A stretch of 34,044 nt of DNA. Origin: a virus. Below are positions 1,325 through 27,871 of this stretch, one piece after another. The DNA lies in IMG/VR virus record IMGVR_UViG_3300035698_015035, positions 1-34,044 of that record; one strand, 5' to 3'. The stretch's first letter is position 1. Every line of letters starts with the position of its first letter. The translations under genes were made by a program, and so were the position numbers. The notes beneath the pieces were generated by a model. That model had not been told where the DNA came from, ran no database searches, and worked only from the letters and a program-made list of their open reading frames with translations.

Positions 1325-1813
1325 ATGAGAAACTTTATTGACATTGAGGAAATTAAAGAAACAACCTCTCAAGTAATAGAGCACATCAGGAAATTCCATA
1401 AGATCAAGGAAACTGAAGAACTGTTGCAACATCTTCTAATCAATCATGGTTTAACAGCATTTCTTTCACCGTTTCACAGGGAAGAAGTAGTGGAGAACCA
1501 ATTTGGGAAATACCCAACTACTAAGGTTCTCCATATCGTTTTAAACGGAGATAGTTCAAAAACAGATTTCGTTGATGAGGTTTTAGCCTTCCATGATCTC
1601 CATAAAGATGATTATGTGAAACACAAAGCCATAGCACTAAAGTTTGATGTCACTTCGACATATCCTGATGGAGCTGAGAAGATAATCGAGTATATGATCT
1701 ATGAGAATAGTAACCTAGATCGTGATATGAACCCTGATTTAGCTTACATGGTAGCTTTAGATCTCTCAATGATTAAGTACATAAAAAGTTATGGCGAATC
1801 AGAAGGAGAATAG
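1325..1813 (+). CDS. Hypothetical phage protein, 162 aa
   Basis: Function not recognised. The ATG is preceded by TAAGGAAGTT, giving an AAGG ribosome-binding site at good spacing that overlaps the upstream stop codon. The protein is soluble and mixed alpha/beta in appearance, with a Lys/Glu-rich helical N-terminus (about residues 1-45). A central beta-rich part contains the string VLHIVLNGDSSKTDFVDEV. No known catalytic motif was seen. Its 3' end overlaps the primase gene by 23 bases, which implies translational coupling and a place in the same replication-type operon. Confidence 0.8.
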   Translation: MRNFIDIEEIKETTSQVIEHIRKFHKIKETEELLQHLLINHGLTAFLSPFHREEVVENQFGKYPTTKVLHIVLNGDSSKTDFVDEVLAFHDLHKDDYVKHKAIALKFDVTSTYPDGAEKIIEYMIYENSNLDRDMNPDLAYMVALDLSMIKYIKSYGESEGE

Positions 1814-2861
1814 TTTACTCTACAAGATTTTAAAACGTAACGTTCATGTCTGTAGGTATGAGAATAACTATGCAAGGCGTGAAGTTATGGTTCGATGTCC
1901 TTATTGTGGGGATAGCATCAAGGATCCAAGTCATGCGCACTTCTATATAGAGAATAAACCTCCTTACAGGTATGAATGCAAACGCTGTTCTACCTCTGGT
2001 TTACTTACTGAAGAAGCAATGCGTGACTTGGGTTTCTATGATCCAGAATTTGTCATAATGATAGTGGAAGGAAAGAAAGCTATATTATCAGAGCTTTCCT
2101 CATCAACATCAACGACAAAGCGTTTTAATGATCGACAACATAGAATTACGAAGACTATAATTCCACCTTTAATTGGTGATGAAATGGAAGATGCTAATTT
2201 TGAGTATTTGTCAGCTAGACTTGGAATTACAGTTCCTCATAAGGACTATGCTAAACTTAAGATAGTATCTAACTTTTCGAAGTTCTATGAAGTAAACAAC
2301 TTAAGCAATATAAAGTATGATAAGTATATCAGTGCAAAGCTAGATGTCTTTGATACAAAGTATCTAGGGTTTCTAAGCTATGATAGACGTTTCATAACCT
2401 TTAGGTCTCGCTCTAAAAGTAGTAAACTTAGAAGATATGAGATATTCAATATATACAATTCCAGTTTCAATAACCGAAAATTCTATACCATTGGTACAAA
2501 AGTAAATACTCTCAATCCTAACTTCACACTCATTATATCTGAGGGAGTCATTGACATCCTCTCTGTGTTTTATAACATATACGATGGAGAAGAGAAAGAG
2601 AATAATGTATTCGCTGCTGTGAATGGTGCTGGTTATAGAAACGTGATAATGAACTTTTTAAGGCTTGGATTCCTTAATATGGAACTAATTATATACGGTG
2701 ATTCAGATTTTATAATAAAATATAAGAATCTGATTAGATCGTTTAAACTCCTACCAATTTCTTCTCTGACAGTTTATTATAATCAAGAACTAAATCCACA
2801 GAGAAAGACTGATTTTGGCGTACCCAAAAAGGACATTATGCGAAAGGTGATCCGTATATGA
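1791..2861 (+). CDS. DNA primase, small phage type (zinc ribbon plus TOPRIM)
   Basis: Probable primase that makes RNA primers for lagging-strand synthesis. Near the N-terminus is a zinc-ribbon-like Cys set: CPYC at residues 36-39 and CKRC at residues 63-66. The TOPRIM signature follows in the C-terminal half: IISEGVIDIL, with the catalytic-type Glu at residue 250, and then IIYGDSDF, with the DxD pair at residues 303 and 305. At 356 aa it is close to T4 gp61-type primases (about 340 aa) and lacks a fused helicase domain. The start overlaps the previous gene by 23 bases and has only a weak upstream purine stretch, so it probably depends on coupled translation. Its stop overlaps the RNase H start as ATGA. 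The domain call is strong; the exact primase subfamily is inferred. Confidence 0.88.
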   Translation: MANQKENSLLYKILKRNVHVCRYENNYARREVMVRCPYCGDSIKDPSHAHFYIENKPPYRYECKRCSTSGLLTEEAMRDLGFYDPEFVIMIVEGKKAILSELSSSTSTTKRFNDRQHRITKTIIPPLIGDEMEDANFEYLSARLGITVPHKDYAKLKIVSNFSKFYEVNNLSNIKYDKYISAKLDVFDTKYLGFLSYDRRFITFRSRSKSSKLRRYEIFNIYNSSFNNRKFYTIGTKVNTLNPNFTLIISEGVIDILSVFYNIYDGEEKENNVFAAVNGAGYRNVIMNFLRLGFLNMELIIYGDSDFIIKYKNLIRSFKLLPISSLTVYYNQELNPQRKTDFGVPKKDIMRKVIRI

Positions 2862-3418
2862 CGCAAAGAAAGATTGATGTATTTACCGACGGCAGTGTCA
2901 GTAAATACAAAGAAAAAGTTGGAAATGTTTTTTATGGCTCTTATGCCATTATATTTCTTGACCGTAAGGAACTCTTTGGTAGATATTGGGAGGTCTTTAA
3001 AGAGACTACAATTAACCAAATGGAGCTTATGGCTATAATAAAATCCCTGGAGATTCTCAAAGAAGAAGGTCTCATGCATGAAGCTATTTATATTTACAGT
3101 GATAGTGAGTATTCAGTTAAAGGTTTCAATGTATATCTTCCAAACTGGTTAAAAAAGAACTGGTGTTTAGCCTCTGGTAAGCCTGTCAAGAATAAAGAAC
3201 TCTGGGTTAAATTACTAGAAGTCAGTAAGCACTTTCCAGAGCTACAAATTACACATGTTAAAGCTCATCAATCTAAAGAAGTTATCGCTGAGAATTATGA
3301 AGCGGAATGGAATGATAAGGTTGACAAGATTGCTACTGGTGCAAAAGCTGATCTTGCATATGCTATGAATAATGAAATAGATATGGAATTCTCTAGTATA
3401 CAATGGTACGATGGCTAG
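2858..3418 (+). CDS. Ribonuclease H (RNase H1 type)
   Basis: Cleaves the RNA strand of RNA-DNA hybrids, here most likely to remove primers made by the adjacent primase. The acidic RNase H1 active site is visible in order: FTDGS with Asp11, NQMELMA with Glu56, YSDSEYS with Asp82, and WNDKVDKIA with Asp156. A His in VKAHQ (residue 137) sits where the conserved catalytic-loop His is found. At 186 aa it is typical, slightly longer than bacterial RNase HI (about 155 aa). The start overlaps the primase stop as ATGA, a classic coupled arrangement. It is unrelated to T4's own RNase H (a flap-nuclease fold), so this phage uses a different primer-removal enzyme from T4. Confidence 0.93.
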   Translation: MTQRKIDVFTDGSVSKYKEKVGNVFYGSYAIIFLDRKELFGRYWEVFKETTINQMELMAIIKSLEILKEEGLMHEAIYIYSDSEYSVKGFNVYLPNWLKKNWCLASGKPVKNKELWVKLLEVSKHFPELQITHVKAHQSKEVIAENYEAEWNDKVDKIATGAKADLAYAMNNEIDMEFSSIQWYDG

Positions 3419-4187
3419 TAAGCAATTAGCTAGGAGACATAATTACCTTAGTAAAGAAATAGAGTATCTTACCAAATCGAAAATCAGAGAGTATGATATT
3501 CGAGATGCTGGATTCTCTCTCATTAAGGTCTTTAAACTCCTAGATGAGAAGATGATAGCACGTATCTCTAAGATAACTAGTAAACTAGAGAAGAACATCT
3601 TCATTGGAAAACTAATACGGAACAATCCATCATTAGGGAAAGAGATGATGGATGGTTTCGTAACGGTAAGAATTGCCTTCTTTGAAGCAAATGATCTTAA
3701 CAAAGATTCTATTATTGCTATAAAGAAGGATGCTGTAATTACAACCAAATTCTGTAAGACCCTTGAATTCTATGATAGTGGTATCGTTTTTGTACAGAAG
3801 AGTGTTTACACATCATTCTATACGTTTGATCGTATGGAATTCTACTATGATGGAATGACTAAGACTTTGGACATCAGAGGTGCTAGCAAGTTAATTAAGC
3901 GAGATAGTGAGTTCCTAGTACGTCTTAAAGAAGTCTTCAAGAGTGCTGAGAGAACAAAAAACAAGAAGGTGTCAATATCCCTATTAACTAAGTTAAGAGA
4001 GGATTACCTCAGAGGTGAGCTTGAGAAAGAAAGCTATAGAGAATTGAAGAGTGGAATGTTTAGAATAGATATTAACTTTGGTTACGCTAAAGTGATTTAT
4101 GTAAAGGACATTGCAAAAAAAGAAGACATCAATTTAGGATACAACTATACTGAAATAGTTGTACCATTAATTTCATTAATATTATAG
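3411..4187 (+). CDS. Conserved-looking phage protein with a KKDA motif, 258 aa, function unknown
   Basis: Not assignable to a function. The N-terminal third is basic and helical. It is followed by a compact region with the strings IIAIKKDAVITTKF (about residues 101-114), IVFVQKSVYTSFYTFDRMEF and LDIRGASKLI, which look like buried beta strands carrying conserved polar residues. My recollection is that similar IKKDA / KN-x-YTS patterns occur in unannotated proteins of other large phages; I cannot verify that here. The start overlaps the RNase H stop by 8 bases with no clear ribosome-binding site, so it is probably coupled to RNase H and belongs to the same operon. The stop codon lies inside the 5' arm of a strong terminator. 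Confidence 0.8.
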   Translation: MASKQLARRHNYLSKEIEYLTKSKIREYDIRDAGFSLIKVFKLLDEKMIARISKITSKLEKNIFIGKLIRNNPSLGKEMMDGFVTVRIAFFEANDLNKDSIIAIKKDAVITTKFCKTLEFYDSGIVFVQKSVYTSFYTFDRMEFYYDGMTKTLDIRGASKLIKRDSEFLVRLKEVFKSAERTKNKKVSISLLTKLREDYLRGELEKESYRELKSGMFRIDINFGYAKVIYVKDIAKKEDINLGYNYTEIVVPLISLIL

Positions 4188-9209: not shown

Positions 9210-11063
9210 ATGTTAAATTATGCACATGATAGAGTTAACGTTCCGAAAGATGGGGCTTCCCAAGTAATCCGTGAAGCTTACAATCACTTTAAAGATGAGC
9301 GCAATATCTCTATCTTGGGTGATGGTTATAAAGAACTTCTTTCTGACGCAACTCTCTTCGAAGAATTTATTGAGCAACTTTCTGATGGATTAGAAGTTGA
9401 CAGTAAAGCTGTATTTACTACATTAGCCGAAAACATGAGACTTGAAACTCTTTCTGAGGGTTCAATGAGTGGAATTTCCCCAGTTGCTAGCCTTCAGGGT
9501 TCAATGCTGAGAAAATTCTTTCCTCGTCTCGTTGTAAAAGATTCAATGCCTATGGAAGTAGCTGAAAAACCTGCTTTCTGGTTGACCTACATGACACCTT
9601 ACTACGTTGATCGTACTGGTGCTCGTCATGAACTTCCTGCATATACACGAGCTGGCTTTGCCTCTGGTGCTCTTGCTACTGATGCTGGTTTACTTCCTGT
9701 TCTCGGTGTAATGATTGATGGATCTGCTCTTGCTGATCTGAACATCATGACTGGAAAAGACAGTGATGGATCTGCTGTTACCGATGGTGACTTCGGAGCC
9801 ACAGCTGGTGTTTCCTTAGTTACTCCTGCCGCAGCTGCTGTTGCACTTGCTGCTTCAAATGATACTCTGGATAAAGTTTTTGGTATCAAAACAATACGTT
9901 TCGGTTTGAACAACGGTTACGATACTGAAGCCACAACTACTCCTGACAATGAAGCTGATACTCGTATTGATGTAGATGTTGACTTTAAAGCTGACATCAA
10001 TGGTAATATCCAAGGCGCAGTTGAGTTTACTCTTCCTGCTTCTGGTGATATTGATACTGCTGCTATGGGAACTGGTTATACTGTAATCAATCCTGTTGCT
10101 GTTGGTGCTTCTGGTACGTTTATTGCTGTTGGTACAAATTTCGCAGATCAAGTTCCTGCTAGTACTGTAATCAAAGGTCGGGTAACTGGTCATGTTGATT
10201 TCAAAACTGGTTTTGTTTATCTTGCTTTCCTTGGTGACTATGCTAAAGCTGCTGCAATCGCTGGTTATGTATCCTCTGAAAACAACAGTTACGGTGGATC
10301 CGTAGAGTTCGATATCGACAAGCGTGAAGTTAATATCGGTACTGGCGAGCACGTAAATGCTGCTATCCCTGCTGAGTATACTAAAGATATCATGGCAATG
10401 TATAACATCGATGGTCATGTAAAGACTGTTGATCTTATGTCTACTTATCTTGCACAGAAAACTGAGTTTGATGGTTATGACTTCATGAAGAAATCTTTTG
10501 TGAATAATAAACTTGGAGCTGGTGGTGCTGGATATGCTGGTACCTTTAACTGTTTTCCTGCTCGTGAATTCGCTGGTCGTCCTCAAGACTGGATCGAAGA
10601 GCTGAAACGTCTTATTGACTATTACTCAGTCAAAATGCGTAATGACAGTAACTATCCTGGTGGTCGTTTTGTTGTTTATGGCAACCCCATTGACATCAAC
10701 CTGATTACTAATGTAACATGGTCTTTCCGCACAGGTGCTGGCACCGAGCGTGAAGGTGTTGAAGTTAACTATAGCGTTGGTAGCTATCAAGGTGCAAACC
10801 TTTACCACGTTGTTTCTTCAGAAAACCTTGTTCAAGGTGAATTGCGTATCTATTTCTATCCCACACAGGATGATCAGATGACGTATAAGTATTTTCCATA
10901 TGCTTTTAACGTGGAAAACAACTATCGTGATCCAAATAAACCAAACGTGCCATCGATTATGATGACTAAACGTCATAAATTTGAAGAGTTTACTCCTCTC
11001 CAAGCTGTTCTGACGATTACGAATAACGCTGGTTCTTTGCCTGAACGTGCTGCTGCTTCCTAA
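9210..11063 (+). CDS. Major capsid protein (T4 gp23-like)
   Basis: Main shell subunit. The 617-aa protein has a helical N-terminal delta-like region. A probable maturation site, ETLSE/GSMSG (Glu83/Gly84), follows and fits the I/L-x-E-(A/G/S) rule. Right after it, ISPVASLQGSMLRKFFPRL corresponds to the gp23 segment just downstream of the T4 cleavage site. The C-terminus, with FPYAFNVENNYRDP and IMMTKRHKFEEF, is typical of the gp23 group. Residues about 180-370 are Gly/Ala/Asp/Thr-rich, look like an inserted beta domain, and account for its length over gp23 (521 aa). Codons are richer in GCT, GGT and GTT than in neighbouring genes, which suits very high expression. GGAG precedes the ATG by ten bases. 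A terminator follows about 20 bases after the stop. Confidence 0.9.
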   Translation: MLNYAHDRVNVPKDGASQVIREAYNHFKDERNISILGDGYKELLSDATLFEEFIEQLSDGLEVDSKAVFTTLAENMRLETLSEGSMSGISPVASLQGSMLRKFFPRLVVKDSMPMEVAEKPAFWLTYMTPYYVDRTGARHELPAYTRAGFASGALATDAGLLPVLGVMIDGSALADLNIMTGKDSDGSAVTDGDFGATAGVSLVTPAAAAVALAASNDTLDKVFGIKTIRFGLNNGYDTEATTTPDNEADTRIDVDVDFKADINGNIQGAVEFTLPASGDIDTAAMGTGYTVINPVAVGASGTFIAVGTNFADQVPASTVIKGRVTGHVDFKTGFVYLAFLGDYAKAAAIAGYVSSENNSYGGSVEFDIDKREVNIGTGEHVNAAIPAEYTKDIMAMYNIDGHVKTVDLMSTYLAQKTEFDGYDFMKKSFVNNKLGAGGAGYAGTFNCFPAREFAGRPQDWIEELKRLIDYYSVKMRNDSNYPGGRFVVYGNPIDINLITNVTWSFRTGAGTEREGVEVNYSVGSYQGANLYHVVSSENLVQGELRIYFYPTQDDQMTYKYFPYAFNVENNYRDPNKPNVPSIMMTKRHKFEEFTPLQAVLTITNNAGSLPERAAAS

Positions 11064-13631: not shown

Positions 13632-15548
13632 TTATTTTTTGTATAATTTGTCTAATACCGTTGAGACGTTTTTGATTGATGCTCTCTCTTCATTTGCTAT
13701 AATAGTTTTAGAAAACTCAGAATAGCCAGATGTGTCAGCACCTAAATCCCTAAATGATTTAGAGAATTTTCTTGCTACATCTACATTCTTCCTGCTTCCA
13801 ACTCTAAAGAATTTTCTAAAGGTGGATTGCTCTCTAGCATATTTATAGATAAGAAAGGACATAATATTATCATCATGTTCTCCATCTCGGTGCTCTATCT
13901 TACCGTTACGCTTTGTCTCAAGATTTTGTAAGTCATCAAACAAGGGTTTATAAGCTAGAACGTCTGGCGTATCACTTACTACGTCACCTAAGATGTCTAT
14001 CATCTCATTACGACTTGGACCAGTTGTATTTACACCATACACTTTAGTTAATTTATTTTTATTACTCTTTATTTTTCCTAAATCTTTAATTCCTGCCTTA
14101 GTAGCAGTTTCAAACTCTTTATAGAAATAGAAAAGCCTACTTCTCATACCATAGTATTTATGACCTTCTAGTATGTCTTGAATTATAGTTAGACCATAAC
14201 TATTACGTTCTATTATTATGGCACCCTGAGTTATCCAACGTAAAGATATTGTCCTTATAAGTTCTCTGAGCTTTGGAACTGATATAACATTAGAGGCAAA
14301 CCTAGCTGCCAATTTATCCGTCTTAGGATCTATAATATTGATAACTGAATTATCTCTTTGGAGTCCACCAGCAACATCAACAGAAATAGCATAAGGGTAA
14401 TCAATGTCTATAGGTTCGTATACCTCAAAGCTCCATTTTTTATCTATGAGCTTACGGTCTATAGGATCATTTATGTTATTTTTAATATAGTCAAGCTGTT
14501 CTTCTTCAAAAGGACTGAGACTAGAAGCATATGTCCATACGATATCTACTTCTTTCTTAATCTCTGCCATTTTCCAGTTAAGAGAACGACACTGTTCTTC
14601 ATACCATGCCTCACTATGCCCTAACTGTCTCCAAGAATATTCTACATGAATAAAGTCATTTCTTGAATTCTCATAGATATAAGCTTTAATCTCATCTCTG
14701 CTAAAGTCATAAATAGCTTCATCCCAAGGAGCTGCCATATCGATTATCTCTTTAATAAACTTGGCAGTTGGATCCTCTAGGAAGTTAGGAGTAGTAGTGA
14801 AAAGTTTAAAGTGGACCTTTCCATTCTTCTCAGCAGCTTCTGCAGCTTTGATAAGTACAGGAGCAGCAGATGCATATACCTTCTCAAAGAACCTGACAAA
14901 AGCAGTTTCATCCCAGTATATAATAGGAGAAGTTAAACCCCTACCTAATTTAGCAGCTTGTTCCAAAGTAACTGGAGTTGGAAGAGCATCTATCTTATTA
15001 CTAAGAGAAATCTTTGTGATACTATGAATATTATCTACATCCTTCTTATTATAACCTTTGATATAAGCTGGAGCATATTCATGTATAGATTTATATCTAG
15101 ATAAATTGAGATCAGCATCACCTTGAATCTTATTTCCGAATAAGATAGACGTATTGTTTGTTCCGAAATTGTATATCCAGTCCAGAAGACATATAGCTGA
15201 TATAGTTTTACCATTCTGTCTAGGTAGGAGGAGAATAGTGTTTATACTATTCAACATAAGAAAAATTTCAGCTAGATTTCCAGGATTCATTTTAAACCTT
15301 GTATATCCACCTGTCTCTGGTATCCTGATAATCTCTCTGAGGTAATAGTATGGATTCTTAATAATCTCTCGAATCACTCTACTTTTAATCTCATCAGAAA
15401 GGTTATCAGCTAATGGATTTACATTCAGTAGTTTGATGTCATACAGTTTCAAAAAGAACTTATTATTACGTATACCTTTGCTTTTCAGATAACGATACAT
15501 CTCCAGAAACGAAAGGTTATTTGTAGTGGTGTGGTAATTATGTTCCAT
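13632..15548 (-). CDS. terL: Terminase large subunit (packaging ATPase and nuclease)
   Basis: Motor that pumps DNA into the prohead and cuts it. The ATPase half shows Walker A LPRQNGKT (residues 108-115), Walker B IIYWDE (209-214) and the coupling motif TTTPN (251-255). The nuclease half shows the RNase H-like triad as SVDVAGG (Asp391), IIIERNSYG (Glu447) and GEHDDNIMSF (Asp559/560). At 638 aa it matches T4 gp17 (610 aa). AGGA precedes the ATG by six bases. It leads a minus-strand operon of three genes. No linked small terminase was identified; the two downstream genes are candidates by position. Confidence 0.95.
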   Translation of the reverse strand: MEHNYHTTTNNLSFLEMYRYLKSKGIRNNKFFLKLYDIKLLNVNPLADNLSDEIKSRVIREIIKNPYYYLREIIRIPETGGYTRFKMNPGNLAEIFLMLNSINTILLLPRQNGKTISAICLLDWIYNFGTNNTSILFGNKIQGDADLNLSRYKSIHEYAPAYIKGYNKKDVDNIHSITKISLSNKIDALPTPVTLEQAAKLGRGLTSPIIYWDETAFVRFFEKVYASAAPVLIKAAEAAEKNGKVHFKLFTTTPNFLEDPTAKFIKEIIDMAAPWDEAIYDFSRDEIKAYIYENSRNDFIHVEYSWRQLGHSEAWYEEQCRSLNWKMAEIKKEVDIVWTYASSLSPFEEEQLDYIKNNINDPIDRKLIDKKWSFEVYEPIDIDYPYAISVDVAGGLQRDNSVINIIDPKTDKLAARFASNVISVPKLRELIRTISLRWITQGAIIIERNSYGLTIIQDILEGHKYYGMRSRLFYFYKEFETATKAGIKDLGKIKSNKNKLTKVYGVNTTGPSRNEMIDILGDVVSDTPDVLAYKPLFDDLQNLETKRNGKIEHRDGEHDDNIMSFLIYKYAREQSTFRKFFRVGSRKNVDVARKFSKSFRDLGADTSGYSEFSKTIIANEERASIKNVSTVLDKLYKK

Positions 15549-15642
15549 ATATTCCTATTCCATATCTTTAATAAATAATTCAATTATTACTTAATAAATA
15601 AAACTCTGGAACAAATCTATAACCCAAATTTGAGGAATAGCA
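15549..15642. promoter_or_regulatory. Divergent region between terminase and the sheath operon
   Basis: AT-rich 94-base gap with TAATAAATAA-type sequence twice (about 15570-15578 and 15593-15601). CAAATTTGAGGAATAG next to the plus-strand start supplies the GAGG ribosome-binding site. Promoters in both directions are inferred from the divergent layout. Confidence 0.4.
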
Positions 15643-16386
15643 ATGGTAAAATTATTTAAGGAAAACAAAGAAGGAGTAGCTTTAGTCGCTGTACCCAATC
15701 TACGGATCTATATTCCGACAACCTACTTCGAAGGCACAAGTCCATTAGCTACAGTTCAGGATGATACGGTTACTACTCTTGGTCTGTTCTTCATGAGTCA
15801 ATCATCTAAAGAAGCTTTATCAGATAAAGAAGTTAAATTTCTAGGTAAGTTTCCAGCTGAGTTATCAATTAAGACAAGAAACATAGAAGACCGTCTTGTA
15901 ATGATTAAGAATGATAAAATACCTTGTAAGGTGTTATATCTCAAAAAAGATGACCCTCTTATGTCAACACATATCAAAGAGGACATTAAATTTGTAGTAA
16001 ACTTCATTCAGAAAATGTTGCATGCAGGTAAGATTCCTGGTGCAGCTGGCTATACCAATATACTAAGCTACTATTTAGACATCTTAACTTTCCATAAGCT
16101 AGACTTAAAGGTTTCAAACTTCATTTTAGAAGTTATTGTCTCTGAATTGTCTCGTATCAAAGGTAAGAAAACTCAACGCTTTAGAAATGAGATAGGAAAG
16201 GATAATAGCTCACTGTCAGAAGTTGACTTTGAGATGTGTAATATCAAAGATTTACCTCATTTAAGCTCTAACTTTAGTTCCCTAACTTCGGAGAATATGA
16301 ACAAGGGATTACAAGTCTCCATAGAGCGCACAAACACTGGGAAAGACCAAGCGTACTCCCCAGTGGAAAAAATCATTAATTACTAG
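15643..16386 (+). CDS. Hypothetical, probable structural protein upstream of tail sheath, 247 aa
   Basis: No confident identification. The N-terminal half is beta-rich (VALVAVPNLRIYIPTTYFEG; LGLFF). The second half is helical, with HAGKIPGAAGYTNILSYYLDI followed by FILEVIVSELSRIKGKK. The C-terminal 40 residues are Ser/Asn-rich and probably flexible. GAGGAATAGCA gives a good ribosome-binding site. Placement just before sheath and tube and opposite terminase suggests a tail or neck component such as a sheath-completion protein, but I see no specific signature. Confidence 0.75.
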   Translation: MVKLFKENKEGVALVAVPNLRIYIPTTYFEGTSPLATVQDDTVTTLGLFFMSQSSKEALSDKEVKFLGKFPAELSIKTRNIEDRLVMIKNDKIPCKVLYLKKDDPLMSTHIKEDIKFVVNFIQKMLHAGKIPGAAGYTNILSYYLDILTFHKLDLKVSNFILEVIVSELSRIKGKKTQRFRNEIGKDNSSLSEVDFEMCNIKDLPHLSSNFSSLTSENMNKGLQVSIERTNTGKDQAYSPVEKIINY

Positions 16387-16507
16387 CATTTTCCTAAACA
16401 TTTAATTAAAATTTATATTAAGTATTATATAAGAGACCCAATTTTATTTTGGGCACACTTGATTGAATTTAGGAAATTTTAACCAATTAACCAAACGGAG
16501 ATACCGC
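16387..16507 (+). promoter_or_regulatory. Leader and promoter region of the tail sheath gene
   Basis: AAACATTTAATTAAAATTT at 16396-16414 is nearly the same as the element before the capsid gene, and TATATAAGAGAC at 16426-16437 matches the capsid TATATAAGGAGAC. A small hairpin CCCAA/TTGGG (16437-16441 and 16449-16453) follows, then a direct repeat of AACCAATT and the CGGAG ribosome-binding site. Confidence 0.5.
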
Positions 16508-18952
16508 ATGGAAATATTACGTCCGATCATCTCAAGTACGATTATCGACAATACGAATTATTCCGTAGCGCAAGGTAGCTTTGAAGATGTTGTAATGGCT
16601 GTTATCACTGCTGATACTGGTAGAGATAGCAAGTTTCTTGAGTTTGCTAGTGCTTCCGACTTATTGAGTGAATTCTCTTTAGACGGAAAGCCTAACGATA
16701 AAGCTCATGGACAAGCCATTATGGATGTTCTACAAGCTATGGAAGTTGGTGCAAGAAGTTTGGTAATGCGTGTCGTTCCCGACGATGCTTATTTACCCAA
16801 TGGACTTCTGGCTCTACATTCCAGTGCTAAGATTTACGGTCTAGATGTGTCGAATATCAACACTCCAGATGAAATTATCGGTGGTGCAGGGGCTACAAAG
16901 GATATTGTTGTATCCTTAACTAACAGCACCCCATTCGAAACTAAAACAGTCGCTACACTATATAAGAAAGCTGATGTACAAGAACTCATCGATTTCTATG
17001 CTGGTGATATGACTGCTGCTGCTTTGGCACTTGAAACTCTAGGAGTTGTTATTGCCACATCAGCCGAAACTACTGTCGCTAAGAATGCTTCTGAAGATGT
17101 GACTTTTAGTGTATCAGGTGACGACATTGGTATTGCTGTTGATGGTGAGACTGCAGAGCTTGCTGTGTTACTCAGTGATGCCTCAACTTACAAAGGTTAT
17201 GTTGCTAAGAATCCTTTTCTTAGTGCCGTAATGACTGGAGCAGCTGCTCCAGTTGCTGATACGACTGATACAGTTATTGTAAACAAGAGATTACAGATTA
17301 AACCTATCACTATTGCTCATAATGCTCTTACGAGTAAAGCTGATTTTGAGCTGATGATGACTACATCTCCTGTTTCAGCTGATGACCTCAACACTACTGA
17401 TTTTGGTGCAGTCTTACCGATTTTTGGTTTCTGCTCTAAGTCTAAGAGTCCTGATGAGTATTCAATTACAATCAATCCTACTAGTAAATATGACAAAACA
17501 TACGCATTCAGAGTTTATGAAGTTTCAGTAACTAAGAAAAACCTTCTTGGTAATGCTGTTCTCGTAGACAATGGTGGACCTTTTGTTGTTTCCCTTGATC
17601 CAGATGCCATTGATGGTGCTGGAAGTTCTCTTTTCATTAAAGATGTATTAGAGAAATATTTTGAGGAGTTAGACTTCTTCTTCAATGAAGATAATTATGC
17701 TCTTTACCTTACTGCATTAGAAGCTAACCTAGATCTAGTTATAGGTACTAACACTTTGGATCCTTCCTTAGTAGACCCTCTGTACAATACCATGTATGAA
17801 GGTTCAGGTATCGATAACTTGTATCAAGTGTTGAATTTCAAAACTAATATCGTAAGTGACAAAGAAGATATTGATATTACTGATGATTCAGTTAATCTTG
17901 CTGAAAATGCTGTCTTCGATACCAAGTATACTGCTGCTCACTATGTAATTGAAACAATTACTACTGTGACAAATCCAGCTACTCCTAGTCCATTAGAAGT
18001 GGCTACACCTCTTTACAGCTATGCTGTTAGCTCATATAAATATGATCTGCTTCATGGTTCTAAAGGTCTGTTTACTGCAATAACAGAACCAACGGTTATG
18101 ACCGCTGAAGAAGTACGATTTGCTAAGATCGTTTCTGGTTATGCAGGAACTATTGATGCAGATGTTCATAACAAACGTCTCTTCCAGGTTGATTTACTGT
18201 TCAATAGTAACCAACATGCTTCGATAAATACAGCTATTGCTAGTTTTGTTGCCACTCGTGAGGATTGCTTTGCAGTCATGGCTCTGAGTGTTACCGATAC
18301 TAAAGTGTATCCTGTTAAACTTTCTGCTCTTCTTTCTGGTTATCAGTTTGACTCAAATCGGATTGCTCTGTTTACACAGCATTTCAATGAGACAAATAAA
18401 TACACAGGCAAGAAAATGTTAGTTTCAGCAAGTTATCATATTGCTAGAAAACTCGTTTCTAACGATATCAGCAATGGAACACATAAAGCTATCGCTGGTA
18501 AAGTCTATGGTATAGTTGGTGCACAGGATATGGATATTTCCTTTGTTCCCAATTCTCCTCAAGAAGAAGAACTTTATGGAAGTAAAGTAAACTACTTCAT
18601 AAAGGATCGTCAAAGCACTAGACTGCATACTCAGTTAACTTCACAGGCTAAGAATTCACCTCTAAGTGATATTCCTACTATTAGAAATCTTCTGAAAACG
18701 ATTCGTAAAGTTGAAAACTTTTCTGAATTGTATCAGTACTCAGATCTCAATGATGCTAGTGAAATGACCAAGTTGCAGAGTGGAATCAATAACATTCTAA
18801 ACGCTGAAGTTTTAGCAGGTGCTTATTCAGAAGCTTCTGGCGAAGTATATGCCAGTGAGTATGATAAAGTCCGCAAAAAAGGCAGAGTTAGAATTAAACT
18901 TACCAGTCCTAAGTTCTTAGAACAGATCTTAATTGACTGGATAATCAACTAA
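16508..18952 (+). CDS. Tail sheath protein
   Basis: Contractile sheath subunit, 814 aa, larger than T4 gp18 (659 aa). The N-terminus RPIISSTIIDNTNYSV and a following LVMRVVPDDA are typical of sheath N-terminal domains. The C-terminal core, with SASYHIARKLVSND, then VNYFIKDRQ and the end KFLEQILIDWIIN, matches the conserved sheath handshake region. The central part (about 130-560) is Ala/Thr/Asp-rich and variable, as expected for surface domains. The ATG at 16508 is chosen because GGAGATACCGC precedes it. A TTG 45 bases upstream is in frame but has no ribosome-binding site. Tail tube follows 11 bases after the stop. Confidence 0.92.
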   Translation: MEILRPIISSTIIDNTNYSVAQGSFEDVVMAVITADTGRDSKFLEFASASDLLSEFSLDGKPNDKAHGQAIMDVLQAMEVGARSLVMRVVPDDAYLPNGLLALHSSAKIYGLDVSNINTPDEIIGGAGATKDIVVSLTNSTPFETKTVATLYKKADVQELIDFYAGDMTAAALALETLGVVIATSAETTVAKNASEDVTFSVSGDDIGIAVDGETAELAVLLSDASTYKGYVAKNPFLSAVMTGAAAPVADTTDTVIVNKRLQIKPITIAHNALTSKADFELMMTTSPVSADDLNTTDFGAVLPIFGFCSKSKSPDEYSITINPTSKYDKTYAFRVYEVSVTKKNLLGNAVLVDNGGPFVVSLDPDAIDGAGSSLFIKDVLEKYFEELDFFFNEDNYALYLTALEANLDLVIGTNTLDPSLVDPLYNTMYEGSGIDNLYQVLNFKTNIVSDKEDIDITDDSVNLAENAVFDTKYTAAHYVIETITTVTNPATPSPLEVATPLYSYAVSSYKYDLLHGSKGLFTAITEPTVMTAEEVRFAKIVSGYAGTIDADVHNKRLFQVDLLFNSNQHASINTAIASFVATREDCFAVMALSVTDTKVYPVKLSALLSGYQFDSNRIALFTQHFNETNKYTGKKMLVSASYHIARKLVSNDISNGTHKAIAGKVYGIVGAQDMDISFVPNSPQEEELYGSKVNYFIKDRQSTRLHTQLTSQAKNSPLSDIPTIRNLLKTIRKVENFSELYQYSDLNDASEMTKLQSGINNILNAEVLAGAYSEASGEVYASEYDKVRKKGRVRIKLTSPKFLEQILIDWIIN

Positions 18953-19824: not shown

Positions 19825-22251
19825 TTATACTTTAGTGTCAGCAGAATCATCTACTTTTTCATCAGCACTATCATCTATTTTCTCAGTACCAGCATCTTCG
19901 TCACCACCACCGCTAACTTCTTCGGTACTGTCAGGTGCAGGTTCTTCAGTTTCATCAGATAGTTCAGCAGTTTCATCAGGTTCAGCACCTAGAGCACTAT
20001 CGGGTTCTGCGCCAAGATCTTCTTCAGCATCGTCTTCCTTTTTTCTATTAGCGTCCTTTAGAGTCTGTTTAGCAACTTCTTTCAACATGACGTCATAAAG
20101 TGACCAGTCAATATTAGGAATCATCTTCTTTGTAACTTCTTTAGTGAAGTTATATCGTACACTATCTACATCGGCTTCTCCATAAGCTCTTTCCTGATCA
20201 GATACCAGAGTATCAACAATCTTAGAGATAATAGGTTCAGCGTTTCCAATCAATTCTTGTAGATTTGTATAGTTCAGGCTAGCAGGAGAAGGAAATGTTA
20301 CAGCTATCCCTTTAGGGACAAATGCATCTTTCTCAGCACCTTTTAGGTATTCATTTCTGTAAAGAATGTCAACCATCTTAGTAGTTGGCTTACTGTATGC
20401 TTTCTGGTAAGTTATAATACGTCTTATAAGTTTACCATTCATCATTGTCAGTGTTTTAGCTAATTCAATATCTTCTGTATAATTCAAATGAGCAGATGGA
20501 ACACCCATTCCAGAAATCATAGTTTTTCTCAAGTATTCCAGGAATTCATTATTCTCAAGGTCAGGTTTCTGCCCTTCAATGATTTCCATATCCAAAGGTT
20601 TCTCACCTTCAAACATTGGAAAGAAGTAATCATCAAACATACCTACCATATTAATAACATGCTGTAGATCACCAAAATCATTCATCTTGATTTCACGACC
20701 CTTGATGTCTTGAATGGCAGCATTGATTACGTTCTCTTGATCACCTTCTATACCAGTTTCTACGTACCAAGCACGTTTATCAGATCCTCTAACGAGCATC
20801 ATCATAAGCATACTGATTAGGACTGAGAGATATAACTTCGCTGTAAAGAGAATATCAGCATAGATAGAAGTACCATATTCATTGTCTTCATTCGCATTAG
20901 GTTGAAAGTGAACAACCTTCTGAGGTGGAAGATAAAGAATTTTAAGTTTCTTGAGATAGAGTTCTTTCTGTTGCAAGGCGTTATATATGACCTTCTTGAA
21001 CTCTGGTTTATCTTTGATAAACTTCTTATTCAGCTTTTTAATAATATTTGAAAAGATAAGCTCGTACATGAATTCCTGTTTGCTCTTCATGACGTCTGAA
21101 CCCATAGTGGTAGCTGAGAGAAGGTTATTTAGATTGCTGTTTCCACCTTTGACAGTAGGAGCATCTAAGAAAGAATTATTAACTGTATCGATGTAGTAAT
21201 AACCATAATTAAAGCCGTCAGCCCATAACTTAATGATTCTCTCAGGAAGCAATTCTTTGATGATAGAACCATTAATTTCCATAATGTCTTCATCTCGTAC
21301 TGCGTTCTTTTCCTTATTAGTATCAGGATTGCCGATAGTTGGAACATCAACACCAGACTTCATTAGCTTACCATAGTCTTCACTCAGGATAGCAGACTCA
21401 GAAAGTAAGTCAGTAGGATCGTTTGTTATCTCAACAGACTCATTTACAAACTTAAGAACTTCCGCTTTAAGGACTTTAATCTCATCATCTTTCATCTCAA
21501 ACTTAGTCTTGAAGTCTTCTTCGGGAAAGAGCATGGTATCCTCTGTAAGAGGTTCCAATTCCATAGCTTCATCTTCCAGCATTCTGGTAGCTTTAGCATC
21601 TTCCTTTTCGTCTTCAGTTAAGACTTTTTGAGCAATTCCTTCACCGACTGAATCAATGAATATGAAGAGATCCCCAAGAGTAAGTGATTTCTCTAGATAG
21701 CCAGAAATTTTATCTTCTATGCTATAAGCCTGTTCCAAAGCTTTCATATTCTTCTCAAAGGTACTCTGATTCTCACCTGTAGTCAAGTTACCAGCAGAGA
21801 TATTGAGAGATGTCTTAGTGAAATCATCTGGAGAGATAATATTATCAACAATAGTTTTTACAGCTTCAGAAATCTGAGGAATCATTTTATGTATCATTCT
21901 ATAATTTTGATACATGACGATTCTTTCTTTCTCATTAACCATCATATGATTTAGATGAGTAAGATTATCGCTGTTTAAAGTATTTTCTATTCTGCTTTTA
22001 GTCTTTTCGTATTGCTTAGATTTATTAGGGCTTTTACCCTTATCCCCAGCAACGTTATTGACTGAAGCAATTAGCTCAATTATGTTACCTTCTTTATCAC
22101 CAATATCCGAACTAAAGGATGTTAGCATGCTAGAAACTTTGGTTTTTATGTCTTGAAGGTCTTCAATCTGTTTTGCCTTATTACCATAAAGAGTTTCTTT
22201 GATACTAGCATCTAGTTTATCTGGATTAGGCTTTTGAGTTTTCTCTGCCAT
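19825..22251 (-). CDS. Portal protein (T4 gp20-like)
   Basis: Forms the dodecameric ring through which DNA enters the head. The 808-aa protein is longer than T4 gp20 (524 aa). Core features include KVVHFQPN and YGTSIYADILFTAKLYL, then RAWYVETG. The portal stem and crown part follows, with MISGMGVPSAHLNYTED and AKTLTMMNGKLIRRI. The N-terminal 300 residues are helical and charged. The last about 80 residues are an acidic, repetitive tail (ALGAEPDSALGAEPDET; VDDSADEKVDDSADTKV), probably disordered. The leader has only GTGGA at long spacing. It is alone in its transcription unit, separated from the polymerase operon upstream by a terminator. The neighbouring tail genes are on the opposite strand. 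Confidence 0.88.
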   Translation of the reverse strand: MAEKTQKPNPDKLDASIKETLYGNKAKQIEDLQDIKTKVSSMLTSFSSDIGDKEGNIIELIASVNNVAGDKGKSPNKSKQYEKTKSRIENTLNSDNLTHLNHMMVNEKERIVMYQNYRMIHKMIPQISEAVKTIVDNIISPDDFTKTSLNISAGNLTTGENQSTFEKNMKALEQAYSIEDKISGYLEKSLTLGDLFIFIDSVGEGIAQKVLTEDEKEDAKATRMLEDEAMELEPLTEDTMLFPEEDFKTKFEMKDDEIKVLKAEVLKFVNESVEITNDPTDLLSESAILSEDYGKLMKSGVDVPTIGNPDTNKEKNAVRDEDIMEINGSIIKELLPERIIKLWADGFNYGYYYIDTVNNSFLDAPTVKGGNSNLNNLLSATTMGSDVMKSKQEFMYELIFSNIIKKLNKKFIKDKPEFKKVIYNALQQKELYLKKLKILYLPPQKVVHFQPNANEDNEYGTSIYADILFTAKLYLSVLISMLMMMLVRGSDKRAWYVETGIEGDQENVINAAIQDIKGREIKMNDFGDLQHVINMVGMFDDYFFPMFEGEKPLDMEIIEGQKPDLENNEFLEYLRKTMISGMGVPSAHLNYTEDIELAKTLTMMNGKLIRRIITYQKAYSKPTTKMVDILYRNEYLKGAEKDAFVPKGIAVTFPSPASLNYTNLQELIGNAEPIISKIVDTLVSDQERAYGEADVDSVRYNFTKEVTKKMIPNIDWSLYDVMLKEVAKQTLKDANRKKEDDAEEDLGAEPDSALGAEPDETAELSDETEEPAPDSTEEVSGGGDEDAGTEKIDDSADEKVDDSADTKV

Positions 22252-22356: not shown

Positions 22357-22998
22357 TTAATAGTTAATCACTGTTACCCTTTGTAGAAGAGTGAAGAACA
22401 GAGATTTATACTTTTCTACTATATAGGTGTCAAACACGACACCCTTGTCGTCTCTTGATACAGGATATATAAGTAGCTCACTTTTAGAAGTTGGTTTGGA
22501 GAAAAATAGAGTGATAGGTAGATGAGCTTTATAGTCATCATATATTAGCTCTATAACATTTTTCTTCAGCATATCCCTCTTTTCTTCAGAGAGATCCATC
22601 TCAAATAAAGCGTCATTTTCTATTATAGCAAGTTTAGCAAGTATAGCTTCCTTTGTTACATCAGTATGTCCTGGAAAGAACTTAAGAGTTATACCCTTAT
22701 AAAGTATCTCACTACCGTCTGTATCAAAACCTTCGAAGAATTTAGTATTCTCCCTGTGTGTTTGAAACAAGAGGTCACTATCTACAGTAATTGAAAGTTC
22801 TTCAATTTTCTTCAAGGTTTCTATTTTCTTTGTTTGGGCTTTAGTTAGACCTTCGGTATCTGGAAAGTCAAACCATCCGACAAATTTTTTACCTCTAACT
22901 ATACCATTGCTAACAGTATACATGTCATCTATCTTACAGAGCTGATTGACATCGTATAAGAGTTTAGTAAGTTTCTTCTGATCGCTTATTTCAAGCAT
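22357..22998 (-). CDS. Unknown replication-linked protein, possible sliding clamp analogue, 213 aa
   Basis: No family signature is certain. The protein is beta-rich with regularly spaced strands (YTVSNGIVRGKKFVGWFDFP, EILYKGITLKFFPG, LPITLFFSKPT, SELLIYPVS). Its length is close to T4 gp45 sliding clamp (228 aa), and it follows the two polymerase genes on the same message. This makes a clamp-like role plausible but unproven. The start at 22998 is preferred because CGGAGATCAATA precedes it; an ATG 24 bases further upstream lacks such a site. It overlaps the polymerase exonuclease-half stop by 8 bases, so translation is coupled. An unrelated replication accessory protein is equally possible. Confidence 0.7.
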   Translation of the reverse strand: MLEISDQKKLTKLLYDVNQLCKIDDMYTVSNGIVRGKKFVGWFDFPDTEGLTKAQTKKIETLKKIEELSITVDSDLLFQTHRENTKFFEGFDTDGSEILYKGITLKFFPGHTDVTKEAILAKLAIIENDALFEMDLSEEKRDMLKKNVIELIYDDYKAHLPITLFFSKPTSKSELLIYPVSRDDKGVVFDTYIVEKYKSLFFTLLQRVTVINY

Positions 22999-24901
22999 TA
23001 TTGATCTCCGATTCCAGTACATCTACCATTTCTGATAAGGAAGGTAATTCCAAGAAGTCTCTTCCAATTGACACATGGTCACCTGAAATATGGCTATCTA
23101 TAATTTTCCATCCATCATCTATAAGTGTAAACAGACCTTCTTCTTTCTCACTAGGTATTCTACGCTTAAGCTGAATCTTACCTACCAAAGTAGGATCCTC
23201 GATACCTAAAGCAATAATGATACTTGGATATTGACTTGCAAGATCCTCATCTATTACATTAGCAAATATCATAGATGACCGTTGGTCAGTGAAATCAAGA
23301 TTGACACCAGTATGATTTATATTATTAGGATCAGCGACAAATCCACCAGTCTTCTTACCAGAGCTACTCCGTTCACCAATGTATTGCATGTTATGATTAT
23401 TACTCAACATGTAACCTTGTTCTCTGTACATCTTCCTAGCTAGATTACGAATAGCTACAGTCTTCTTACCAGCTTTACTCAGTCTAGTAGAAGAACCTTG
23501 AGAACTTGTCCAGAGCAACTGCATGTCTTTGTTCTTTTCTTCAAGCTTAACTTGAAGTATAACATCATGGACATTGTAATGTAGAGATAGGATATAGGCT
23601 TTAGAGAAGAAGTTCTTCATACTGACACCCTTTGGTAAGGGATCTTTTCTATCCTCTAGTTCCTCATCAGCAACATTATCGAGAGCATAACTGCTCTTTT
23701 TGTTAGACTTACGTATGTAAGCATACATAATCATCTGATCAACATAGTTGGTATAACTGACACTCTTAAAACTATCACCTCTATCAGATATATTATTTGT
23801 ATTACCATCTTTATAGTAATAAGCTTTAGAGAGATTAGCTACAGTTAGCTTTCTTACCTTCTCATTAAGTTCTTTGAGATAAGCTCTCTGGTCACTGCTA
23901 AGAGAATCATCAGTAAGTTGATTTCTTGTAGTGGCTCTAAGCTCTTTTATCTTTCCAGCAATAAGATCTGAATCACAAATCATCTCTCTGGCTTCTTGAG
24001 TAAAGAAACTACGTTCATAGCCAAAGCTACGTCCACTAGTATCTTGTTCTACATCTTCAAGAGTTATGAAAGAATTGCCTAGTAGATGAGAATACCTGTT
24101 GAGACTGTACCCGATATCATATTCCAGATTCCAAGCAGCTGCCATTTCAGGTTTGATTTCGTTCATAAAAACATAGAAGCCTTCAATCATTTCCTTTTCA
24201 TCTTCATAGAAATAAAATTCAAGTGCTTCAAGACCAGCATCCTTTTCTTTCTTGAGAATACTTGCTCTCACATCTTCACGGAAATCTTCCTCATCAAAGA
24301 GTCTATCTATCTCACGATCCTCAATCAGAGGATCTCTAAATAGGAATTCATGGAAAGTACCATTGAAGAATACACCCATCATTACAATAGGTGCTCCAGG
24401 TTCTTTATGCCAATCATTACCTTGAGCTTGAAAGTTCACACCGTTACTCTCGATATCAAAGAAAGCTTTTTCTATAGGAAGTTCTTTATCAAATTTCTGA
24501 TCAAGCACATCCATAAAGTAATCTTCAATATCCATATCAGCATCGTGTATCATTGGGTCTTTCAGATAACGCTGTCTTAGCTCATTAAGCCTGACTTTGT
24601 AATCCCAATTTTCACTCTCACCAAATAAATCGGCAATAGCTAACATCTTCTTCTTCGGAGCATAGGGAACTTTGAATTTATTCACACTGTCCAATGGAAC
24701 ATACAGAGGTAGTACACTGGGGTCTTCTGGAACTTCCTTACTGATTCCAATGTATACTTGTGGATGAACCACGACGTTTAGTTTCTTTTCACCTTCAGCA
24801 TCCTTAGTAAACATCATAAAGACATCTGGCATGCCTTTTTCACCTCTTACAACCATGCGGTAATAACCGTTGGAATATAGGAGTCCAGTCTTTTCACTCA
24901 T
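22991..24901 (-). CDS. DNA polymerase family B, N-terminal half: 3'-5' exonuclease and palm motif A
   Basis: First half of a split replicative polymerase, 636 aa. Exo I is FFDIES (Asp149, Glu151), Exo II is AAAWNLEYDIGY (Asn258, Asp262), and an Exo III-type Y-x3-D occurs in YNVHDVILQ (Tyr442, Asp446), so proofreading should be active. A KSSYALDNVADEEL stretch and GGFVADP precede palm motif A, which reads DLASQYPSII with metal-binding Asp553. After motif A only about 75 residues remain; motifs B and C are absent and lie in the neighbouring gene. The start has GGAGATATAAG before it and follows the stop of the other half by one base (TAAGATG), so translation is coupled. Although it encodes the N-terminal half, it is the downstream gene of the pair. 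Confidence 0.92.
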   Translation of the reverse strand: MSEKTGLLYSNGYYRMVVRGEKGMPDVFMMFTKDAEGEKKLNVVVHPQVYIGISKEVPEDPSVLPLYVPLDSVNKFKVPYAPKKKMLAIADLFGESENWDYKVRLNELRQRYLKDPMIHDADMDIEDYFMDVLDQKFDKELPIEKAFFDIESNGVNFQAQGNDWHKEPGAPIVMMGVFFNGTFHEFLFRDPLIEDREIDRLFDEEDFREDVRASILKKEKDAGLEALEFYFYEDEKEMIEGFYVFMNEIKPEMAAAWNLEYDIGYSLNRYSHLLGNSFITLEDVEQDTSGRSFGYERSFFTQEAREMICDSDLIAGKIKELRATTRNQLTDDSLSSDQRAYLKELNEKVRKLTVANLSKAYYYKDGNTNNISDRGDSFKSVSYTNYVDQMIMYAYIRKSNKKSSYALDNVADEELEDRKDPLPKGVSMKNFFSKAYILSLHYNVHDVILQVKLEEKNKDMQLLWTSSQGSSTRLSKAGKKTVAIRNLARKMYREQGYMLSNNHNMQYIGERSSSGKKTGGFVADPNNINHTGVNLDFTDQRSSMIFANVIDEDLASQYPSIIIALGIEDPTLVGKIQLKRRIPSEKEEGLFTLIDDGWKIIDSHISGDHVSIGRDFLELPSLSEMVDVLESEINNA

Positions 24902-24902
24902 C

Positions 24903-26888
24903 TTATATCTCCAATGTATTATCGGTTATGTTTGTATAGTGCTCAGTACCTCTGACTGTCACTATAGACAATCCAGTACTCTCTAATAGGGGATAGATAT
25001 GTTTGAGGTTATCCTCAACTATTGTATCACGATCTATAAATTGAATAAGCCATTTAGGTATGTTATCTTCTGAAAATGGGATAGATATTACACTCATCCC
25101 AAAGTTAGCAAAATTCTCGTTGCTAAATACAGTTTCCTTGAGAATCTTATATTCTCTTGGATTGCTCTTTTCAAGACCAGCAATATCATCAAGCTTTCTA
25201 GTGGTACATTTGTAGGTCATACACTTGTCACCAAATGAAATCTTCTTATTTGGATAGAGCTTATTCCAGACAACAGCACCTCTAAATACACCTATACGAT
25301 ATGGGTATACATAGTTAGTCTTAGGATTAACCGTTTCGGTTTTACTGTACTCTATAGAACCTTTTCCAAGCTCGTCATGAATGAGTATCTTAAAATTAGC
25401 TAATTTCTTTAGGATAGAAAGGATATCAATCTTTTCAGCAAAGAATTCAACTTCTAGAAGATCTTTAAAGTAAGCTCTGATGTTCTTATGAATACCAGAC
25501 TTCTTAATAGATATACCTTTCATCGTAAGTTCTGGTGAAGCAAAGATATTACCCTCTTGAGCGATAGCTGTATAAGCATACCATTTCTTACGAGAGGTTA
25601 AAATAATGCGATCAATCAAAAGCTCATTCTTCATAGCAATAAACCCAGCTAGGTGATCAGGTATATTAAGCTTGTCGGTCATCATTTTGAAATTCTTGAC
25701 TAGTAGAACAGTCAAGAAAACAGTAAGTATATTAACTACTGAGACACGATTATGTACAGTTTCTTTAAGCTTAAAATTAGCTTTACAGAACTGGTAGAAT
25801 GGATCAAGGTTGACATAATTTGAATCAGTATCAACTGTCAGCACATGGTCTCTGTTCTCTTCCAATGACCTTCTAAAGCGGTTGTAATAGAAGTGATAGT
25901 GTGAGACAATGTTTTCCAGGTATTCCCATACAGTAGCTAGGAGTGCCTCTGGCTCACTTGCATCATCTTTATCCATGTTGGCAATAGTTTTGTCAACATC
26001 TATAAAGTCATCCCCAACAACTAATTCTTCTAGAGCAGATTTGATAGAATCTAACTTGATAAACTCATAGAAGTTATTACGATAGTAAAGAAGATATTTC
26101 ATAAATTCATCATCTTTATATCTATCTAAGAATCCTTCTAGAAGTTCTATCTCTCTGTTGCTAATATTCTTAGTATTCGAAATAAATCTCTCTGTTAACA
26201 TCTCCATTGTGATATCTACTTCATCAGAATCTATGAAGTAGTCTTCACCTACTTCATCAAAGTCATTGACAATTTCTAATAGATACTTCGACAACTCAGT
26301 AAAGTTATCAAACAATATATTTCCGAGAAAAGTTTCAAAGGTAACTAGAGCTGTAGTGATAGTAGCTCTACCAGTCCAAGTAACCGCTTCTACGTTAAAT
26401 TTATTGAAGAAAATTGAATTAGCTTCACCTAGAATTCCATAGTATGAATTCATCATAAGCTTATTATCCAACTGAGCTATATTCTTGGCATCAGCTTTAC
26501 CTTGAAGCTCTTTATATTCAGGGCTTTCTTTATCAGGGTGTTTATCCCTTTCATTAAGGAAACCAAACATCTGACCTTTATTTTTCTTTCTCATATCTTT
26601 CAAAGAGAGTAGCATTTTAGGAGCTAGAGGAGATTCCCTATTGTCATATATGGCTCCATTTACACCTATCGAATGATGCTTCTTAGTTAACAGATTATCA
26701 AACACTTCTAGCATAGGCATTGAAGTAGCGGTTCGTCTATAGTTATTTACAAACTCGACTGTTTCACCACCTACTTCTTCGTTGATTTTGTCTTCTACAA
26801 GTTCAGTAATGATGTCTCGTTTGTCTTCTCCATAGTATAGAAGAAGGGAGTTTACCATCTGATCTCTATAGTTTTCTAATATAGACAT
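24903..26888 (-). CDS. DNA polymerase family B, C-terminal half: fingers, palm motifs B and C, thumb
   Basis: Second half of the split polymerase, 661 aa. Motif B reads NKLMMNSYYGILG (Lys143, Asn147, Tyr150, Gly151) and motif C reads VLTVDTDSNYV (DTDS at 353-356). A KKWYAYTAI stretch corresponds to the KKRYA motif, followed by LTMKGISIKKSG leading into the thumb. No exonuclease or motif A is present. The spacing between motifs B and C is about 200 residues, far more than the roughly 60 in T4 gp43, indicating a large insertion (about residues 200-340) rich in acidic residues. AAAGGATCCT precedes the ATG. It is the promoter-proximal gene of the operon, so the order is C-half then N-half, reversed relative to an intact enzyme. 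Confidence 0.92.
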   Translation of the reverse strand: MSILENYRDQMVNSLLLYYGEDKRDIITELVEDKINEEVGGETVEFVNNYRRTATSMPMLEVFDNLLTKKHHSIGVNGAIYDNRESPLAPKMLLSLKDMRKKNKGQMFGFLNERDKHPDKESPEYKELQGKADAKNIAQLDNKLMMNSYYGILGEANSIFFNKFNVEAVTWTGRATITTALVTFETFLGNILFDNFTELSKYLLEIVNDFDEVGEDYFIDSDEVDITMEMLTERFISNTKNISNREIELLEGFLDRYKDDEFMKYLLYYRNNFYEFIKLDSIKSALEELVVGDDFIDVDKTIANMDKDDASEPEALLATVWEYLENIVSHYHFYYNRFRRSLEENRDHVLTVDTDSNYVNLDPFYQFCKANFKLKETVHNRVSVVNILTVFLTVLLVKNFKMMTDKLNIPDHLAGFIAMKNELLIDRIILTSRKKWYAYTAIAQEGNIFASPELTMKGISIKKSGIHKNIRAYFKDLLEVEFFAEKIDILSILKKLANFKILIHDELGKGSIEYSKTETVNPKTNYVYPYRIGVFRGAVVWNKLYPNKKISFGDKCMTYKCTTRKLDDIAGLEKSNPREYKILKETVFSNENFANFGMSVISIPFSEDNIPKWLIQFIDRDTIVEDNLKHIYPLLESTGLSIVTVRGTEHYTNITDNTLEI

Positions 26889-27004: not shown

Positions 27005-27871
27005 ATGTCGGTTGAAGAGGGAAAAGAACTACTTAGCACGGATGAAATTAAAGAGATTGAAGAGACGACTAGAAAGATCATCGATGTCGGCAACGATTTT
27101 GGCATTAGTCAAAATCTAATTAATAGTGAGATCACTCAAGCGGATAGTCTTTATGAGGAAATGAAAACACACTGGGATACAGTTAAGAATTATAAACCAT
27201 CTTCCAGAGATATGAACCTTGGAGAAGATAGTGGAGCTAAAGTTCCCAATACACTTTCTTTCATTCATCAACAGAGCGCAAACCTCATTGCACTTAAGCA
27301 ATATAAATTGGCTCTTATCAAAGAATTAACTTCTATCGTTAAAATTAAAGCTGATCTTACACTCAAAGAGTTCATTGTCATACTTAGAGAAAAAGCAGCT
27401 GCATCAGATGGTAACGATGGGGCTATAACTCAAATGGCACTCAAGATGGTAGAAATAATGATGAACGATGATAAGATGCAAGTCTTCAGTGGCAATCCAG
27501 AAGTAGAGGACGGTGAAGTAACTGAAAGTCTAGATAACACATTAGACGCTAGATTAGAAGAAGAAACATCAGGAAATAAATTTGATACTGGTGCTGTAGA
27601 TAATGAACCTGTCGAAGAGGATGAAGTAGTATACCCTTATATCCAAATAGAAGGTTTAGAAGAACGTTATCGGTTCGTTAAAGATGCTAACAAAGCTGAC
27701 ATTTATGTTCATGATGAAACAGCAGATGAGTACTTAGAAGTAGAAGATGCTACAGAACGTTCAGGCTTTGACCTGACAAATGTCACTCTAGAATATGACC
27801 ATGAGGAAAACTTAGTGGAAACCACTGTTTCTAGTGATATTCAGAGAGTAGAGTTAGTAGAGTTTGAATAA
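27005..27871 (+). CDS. Acidic hypothetical protein, 288 aa
   Basis: Function not recognised. The N-terminal 160 residues are helical (LSTDEIKEIEETTRKII; LKEFIVILREKAAAS). Residues 165-215 are an acidic low-complexity linker. The C-terminus is a small beta-type domain (YPYIQIEGLEERYRFV through VELVEFE). The ATG has AAGGAAATTAT upstream. It is a single-gene plus-strand unit facing away from the polymerase operon and ending at its own terminator. The linker and strongly negative charge suggest a structural or DNA-mimicking protein, but nothing specific supports either. Confidence 0.75.
   Translation: MSVEEGKELLSTDEIKEIEETTRKIIDVGNDFGISQNLINSEITQADSLYEEMKTHWDTVKNYKPSSRDMNLGEDSGAKVPNTLSFIHQQSANLIALKQYKLALIKELTSIVKIKADLTLKEFIVILREKAAASDGNDGAITQMALKMVEIMMNDDKMQVFSGNPEVEDGEVTESLDNTLDARLEEETSGNKFDTGAVDNEPVEEDEVVYPYIQIEGLEERYRFVKDANKADIYVHDETADEYLEVEDATERSGFDLTNVTLEYDHEENLVETTVSSDIQRVELVEFE

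Follow-up and report, generated by a model that had tools for sequence, protein, structure and literature searches.

The window analysed here comprises all 34,044 nucleotides (34 kb) of IMG/VR record IMGVR_UViG_3300035698_015035, a genome fragment, and our account of its polymerase genes covers this stretch, the remainder of the genome lying outside view. Two neighboring genes on the minus strand encode the halves of a family B DNA polymerase (Table 1). The gene for the C-terminal half (C-half) lies directly upstream of that for the N-terminal half (N-half), with a single base between them (...ATA TAA G ATG AGT...). The C-half contains K143-LMM-NSYYG (motif B), D353-T-D-S (motif C), KKWY and the thumb, and the N-half contains FDIES (D149, E151), WNLEYD (D262), YNVHD (D446) and DEDLASQYPS (motif A, D553). 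In nearly all of the 36 relatives aligned, the catalytic residues of both halves are kept.

Table 1. The split polymerase genes, their motifs and their neighbors, with positions in the window.
Feature	Position	Strand	Size, evidence and remarks
Divergent neighbor upstream of the C-half (PHROG_27823)	27005..27871	+	Possible L058 counterpart, weak (E 1e-4, single comparison)
C-half of the split DNA polymerase (family B): fingers, second part of the palm (motifs B and C) and thumb	24903..26888	-	661 aa; Pfam, PHROG, AlphaFold model
Motif B, KLMMNSYYG (C-half)	26436..26462	-	Sequence; conserved in relatives
Motif C, DTDS (C-half)	25821..25832	-	Sequence; conserved in relatives
GGAG, ribosome-binding-site-like, for the N-half gene; within the end of the C-half gene	24909..24912	-	Sequence
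N-half of the split DNA polymerase (family B): N-terminal domain, 3'-5' exonuclease and first part of the palm (motif A)	22991..24901	-	636 aa; Pfam, PHROG, AlphaFold model
Exonuclease motif I, D-I-E (N-half)	24449..24457	-	Sequence; conserved in relatives
Exonuclease motif II, N-L-E-Y-D (N-half)	24116..24130	-	Sequence; conserved in relatives
Exonuclease motif III, Y-N-V-H-D (N-half)	23564..23578	-	Sequence; conserved in relatives
Motif A, DEDLASQYPS, catalytic Asp = D553 (N-half)	23222..23251	-	Sequence; conserved in relatives
Gene X (~213 aa), 8 nt overlap with the N-half gene; stands where relatives have a small gene between the N-half and portal genes	22357..22998	-	Weak likeness to L058 X (E 5e-5, single comparison); AR9, BpSp and Staphylococcus phages have their small gene at the same place
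Portal protein; anchors the conserved block N-half / X / portal	19825..22251	-	MarsHill portal 26% identity, E 1e-61; L058 34%, E 8e-121

BLASTP detected no likeness between X and its counterparts in AR9 and MarsHill, or between the gene upstream of the C-half and the AR9 upstream gene. Elsewhere the window contains a cluster of genes for an RNA polymerase-like protein (PHROG_25005), primase and RNase H (4-1317 and 1791-4187, both on the plus strand). It also contains a major head protein, a terminase large subunit and a tail sheath (9210-11063, 13632-15548 and 16463-18952), and from these three genes we assign the fragment to a jumbo phage with a contractile tail.

Among Pfam families the C-half matched divDNApol (PF20286) with 114.8 bits against a cut-off of 25.7, and also DNA_pol_B, while the N-half matched DNA_pol_B_exo1 (PF03104) with 28.8 bits against a cut-off of 23. 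The corresponding PHROG matches were PHROG_2927 (E 2.2e-70) for the C-half and PHROG_3011 (E 4e-37) for the N-half. AlphaFold models, made from the window and IMG/VR sequences, had mean pLDDT values of 87.7 for the C-half and 76.2 for the N-half. The N-half model from residue 5 onward matches RB69 gp43 from residue 1 (Z ~28), and residues 70-661 of the C-half model match RB69 gp43 452-901, that is, to its end (Z ~16). The two halves are complementary parts of one T4/RB69-type family B polymerase. A preliminary description of this DNA had claimed a split polymerase with the motifs as assigned above, in reversed adjacent order and one base apart. The reading frames, the motifs, the profile matches and the RB69 structural matches bear out the first part of that claim, and the coordinates of the reading frames the second. 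Confidence in the N-half model is low in the region of motif A (block means of ~36-55 pLDDT over residues 505-590), as would be expected if the palm took shape only once the chains had paired, the sheet partners of this region being on the other chain. In the C-half model helices fill residues ~163-343, a long insert that separates motif B from motif C; such an insert is a stated peculiarity of the polymerases of group 1 jumbo phages (PMC7824862).

Single-protein scans of viral contigs gave no close relatives, but alignment queries did find them. The relatives detected by tblastn, in Bacillus phages PBS1, AR9 and BpSp, the Staphylococcus jumbo phages, Yersinia phage phiR1-37 and Listeria phage LPJP1, are split, and wider profiles located separate halves in phiKZ, EL, OBP, N1M2, VP4B, pEt-SU and Fnp4. 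As a positive control, fused T4 gp43 matched both wider profiles in a single frame. The same split was present in six named AR9-group phages, whose genomes, searched whole, contained no fused family B polymerase, and in dozens of IMG/VR records; every phiKZ/AR9-type member that we examined carries it. PHROG_2062, which matches the N-terminal part of T4-type enzymes, did not match the phiKZ group. From the profile coverage of T4 gp43 the break lies between residues 434 and 450 in T4 numbering, separating motif A from the fingers, and the structural ranges agree. A split-subunit DNA polymerase in phiKZ is described in PMC5105663, citing Cornelissen 2012, and the phiKZ/AR9-type polymerase is presented as split in PMC5105663, PMC5312081 and PMC7824862; in AR9 both halves are expressed in the same temporal class (PMC5312081). 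The split in the window is this known jumbo-phage split and not a new one. A split intein was rejected: Pfam hits at E 0.01 included no intein model, both tails align with the tails of the relatives, and no intein-like splice junction was seen by eye at the break.

Some relatives have further irregularities. IMGVR 3300025000_000053 (249,853 bp; L145 and L146) contains two copies of the C-half, at 14071-15996 and 241926-244192, with 88-90% identity between them; one copy is broken into two frames. This points to a duplication or a chimeric contig. The C-half is also interrupted in L042, L043, L045, L047, L050, L054 and L056, and the N-half in L014, L079 and L083. These interruptions, possibly introns or other inserts, fall near motif B, near motif C or near position 415-452 of the N-half profile.

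To place the arrangement of the window among its relatives we compared gene order in 36 genomes with both halves, seven phiKZ-group phages and seven further IMG/VR records, a set that includes some near-duplicates. Both orders and both strands occur. Order means little when the two genes of a circular or permuted genome are far apart, and it is the short distances that are informative. The C-half lies upstream of the N-half on the same strand, 9-21 kb away, in AR9, BpSp, MarsHill and SA1, and also at a distance in G041 and phiKZ. Same-strand distances in several lineages range from 6.5 to 21 kb, and the closest N-then-C case has a gap of 3.1 kb (L150). Direct C-then-N adjacency was found in only 3 of ~50 records: the window, L010 (IMGVR 3300026512_000002) and L058 (3300035698_029652), the last two appearing as G002 and G029 in the genome numbering. 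Downstream of the N-half there is often a small gene and then the portal gene, as in AR9, BpSp, MarsHill, SA1, LPJP1, L058, many others and the window itself. The two halves behave independently of each other: in most cases the N-half keeps to the neighborhood of the portal gene, while the C-half moves.

What is new in the window is the direct adjacency, common only to it and two distant relatives; the two-chain polymerase was already known. The preliminary description had derived the order from duplication with complementary loss or from translocation, and had held that neither a stop codon nor a simple insertion could give it. The latter point is upheld, and duplication with complementary loss may have produced the founding split. 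However, no special local event is needed, since the halves are independent genes throughout the group, both orders and strands occur, and the C-half is already upstream at 9-21 kb; the C-upstream order need not be a local swap of an N-C pair.

In rooted trees the split polymerases form one clade, apart from the fused T4-type outgroups (support 100/100). The tandem clade of the window, L010 and L058 has an SH-aLRT of 100 in a 36-row tree and support of 100/99 and 100/100 in rooted trees. One rooted tree places it as sister to all other split polymerases (82/82), a position that dissolves with other outgroups and rows. A fused family B polymerase of 859 aa in L087 (9311-11887), present also in L086, has a motif A (DEDLASLYPS) closely like that of the window and makes a useful outgroup.

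How the two genes came to be adjacent may be read in two ways. We give roughly even odds to a later juxtaposition, in which the halves would have lain apart in the ancestor and been brought together when the genes between them were lost or the C-half relocated. This is consistent with the same-strand distances given above and with AR9 and the Staphylococcus phages, in which an RNA polymerase gene, an SbcC-like gene and small genes stand between the halves and the N-half / X / portal block is intact. Within the tandem clade, however, we found no intermediates, and the rooting leaves the direction unsettled. Alternatively, the C-N adjacency may be ancestral. The pair could be the original product of the split, a tandem duplication in which the first copy lost its N-terminal part and the second its C-terminal part, the halves becoming separated in other lineages. 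Such complementary loss gives exactly the C-then-N order, the 82/82 tree points the same way, and the C-half is upstream, at a distance, in AR9, BpSp, MarsHill, SA1, G041 and phiKZ. Nevertheless we consider this unlikely: the basal position is weak, and orientation varies so widely that a secondary juxtaposition would be equally easy. We regard as quite unlikely the fuller proposal that the split jumbo-phage polymerase began as a tandem C-N pair, circularly permuted through duplication with complementary loss, which the window clade kept and all other lineages later scattered.

It is very improbable that the one-base C-N arrangement is adaptive and sets the subunit ratio by translational coupling. 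The one-base spacing (TAAGATG), from which the preliminary description had proposed coupling and a chosen ratio of the halves, is real, but it is no special feature. Among same-strand neighbor pairs in the window 14 of 23 are at most 10 nt apart, tight spacing being the usual style of this genome; a GGAG of its own precedes the N-half gene; and the spacing is not conserved, the gap in L058 being 226 bp. A ratio set in this way is accordingly unsupported. A contig misassembly at ~24.9 kb, the caveat entered in the preliminary description, is ruled out as a one-off event since the adjacency recurs in two other metagenome records, L010 (227,696 bp) and L058, at ~30% protein identity and in L058 with matching X and portal genes, and no sign in its favor was found.

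Taken as a whole, the gene pair is best explained as encoding the split replicative polymerase (family B) of a jumbo phage of the phiKZ/AR9 type, one subunit from each gene (probability about 0.93). The N-half would supply the N-terminal domain, the exonuclease for proofreading and that half of the palm which bears motif A, and the C-half the fingers, motifs B and C and the thumb. As the catalytic aspartates of motifs A and C are on different chains, non-covalent pairing would be required, and we infer that the separate chains combine into one polymerase-exonuclease. An ordinary two-subunit assembly is most likely. On the simplest reading the split arose once, before the radiation of the phage group, after which the genes would have moved independently, the N-half mostly staying near the portal gene and the C-half relocating. 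In the window clade, which is a deep, little-sampled clade with an unusual gene arrangement, the C-half lies directly upstream of the N-half, giving a C-half / N-half / X cluster ahead of the portal gene. This cluster is probably co-transcribed, each gene having its own ribosome-binding-site-like sequence.

A pair that looks rearranged belongs to a large, old family, whose replicative polymerase would already have been two-chained before the phiKZ/AR9 group radiated. With its two genes in a compact cluster, the three-member tandem clade lends itself to co-expression and structure solving of such an enzyme, and may hold a clue to the origin of the split.

The closest known arrangements are those of L058 and L010, in the same clade as the window, in which the C-half gene directly precedes the N-half gene (26-35% identity). 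L058 has the X and portal genes in the same order as the window and differs in the wider gap between its halves; in L010, unlike the window, no portal gene follows the N-half within the available stretch. AR9 (BI022_gp131 and BI022_gp151), BpSp (gp206/207 and gp217), MarsHill and SA1 share with the window the split site, the distribution of motifs, the C-half upstream of the N-half on one strand and the N-half / X / portal block. In the AR9/PBS1-type phages, however, genes for RNA polymerase and other products occupy the 9-21 kb that separate the halves, and the proteins are 27-33% identical to those of the window. The window C-half model likewise has the long insert of helices that separates motif B from motif C in phiKZ/AR9-type polymerases. 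phiKZ, EL and OBP (PF20286, divDNApol) have the same split and split site, but their halves are far apart, mostly on opposite strands (in phiKZ on the same strand), and motifs A and B are very divergent. These jumbo phages are a nearer precedent than the Aeromonas phages put forward in the preliminary description, which was correct as to the N-then-C order there. Aeromonas phage 44RR2.8t, which is T4-like, also encodes a split T4-type polymerase in adjacent genes, gp43 (498 aa) and then gp43B. Its break at ~residue 498 lies in the fingers, as against 434|450 for the window, and its order is N then C and not C then N; site and order rule out an origin of the Aeromonas type, and the 44RR split is an independent event in a different lineage. 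For a two-chain polymerase as such, phage 25 provides a precedent, its gp43A and gp43B being active and co-purifying (PMC2988022).
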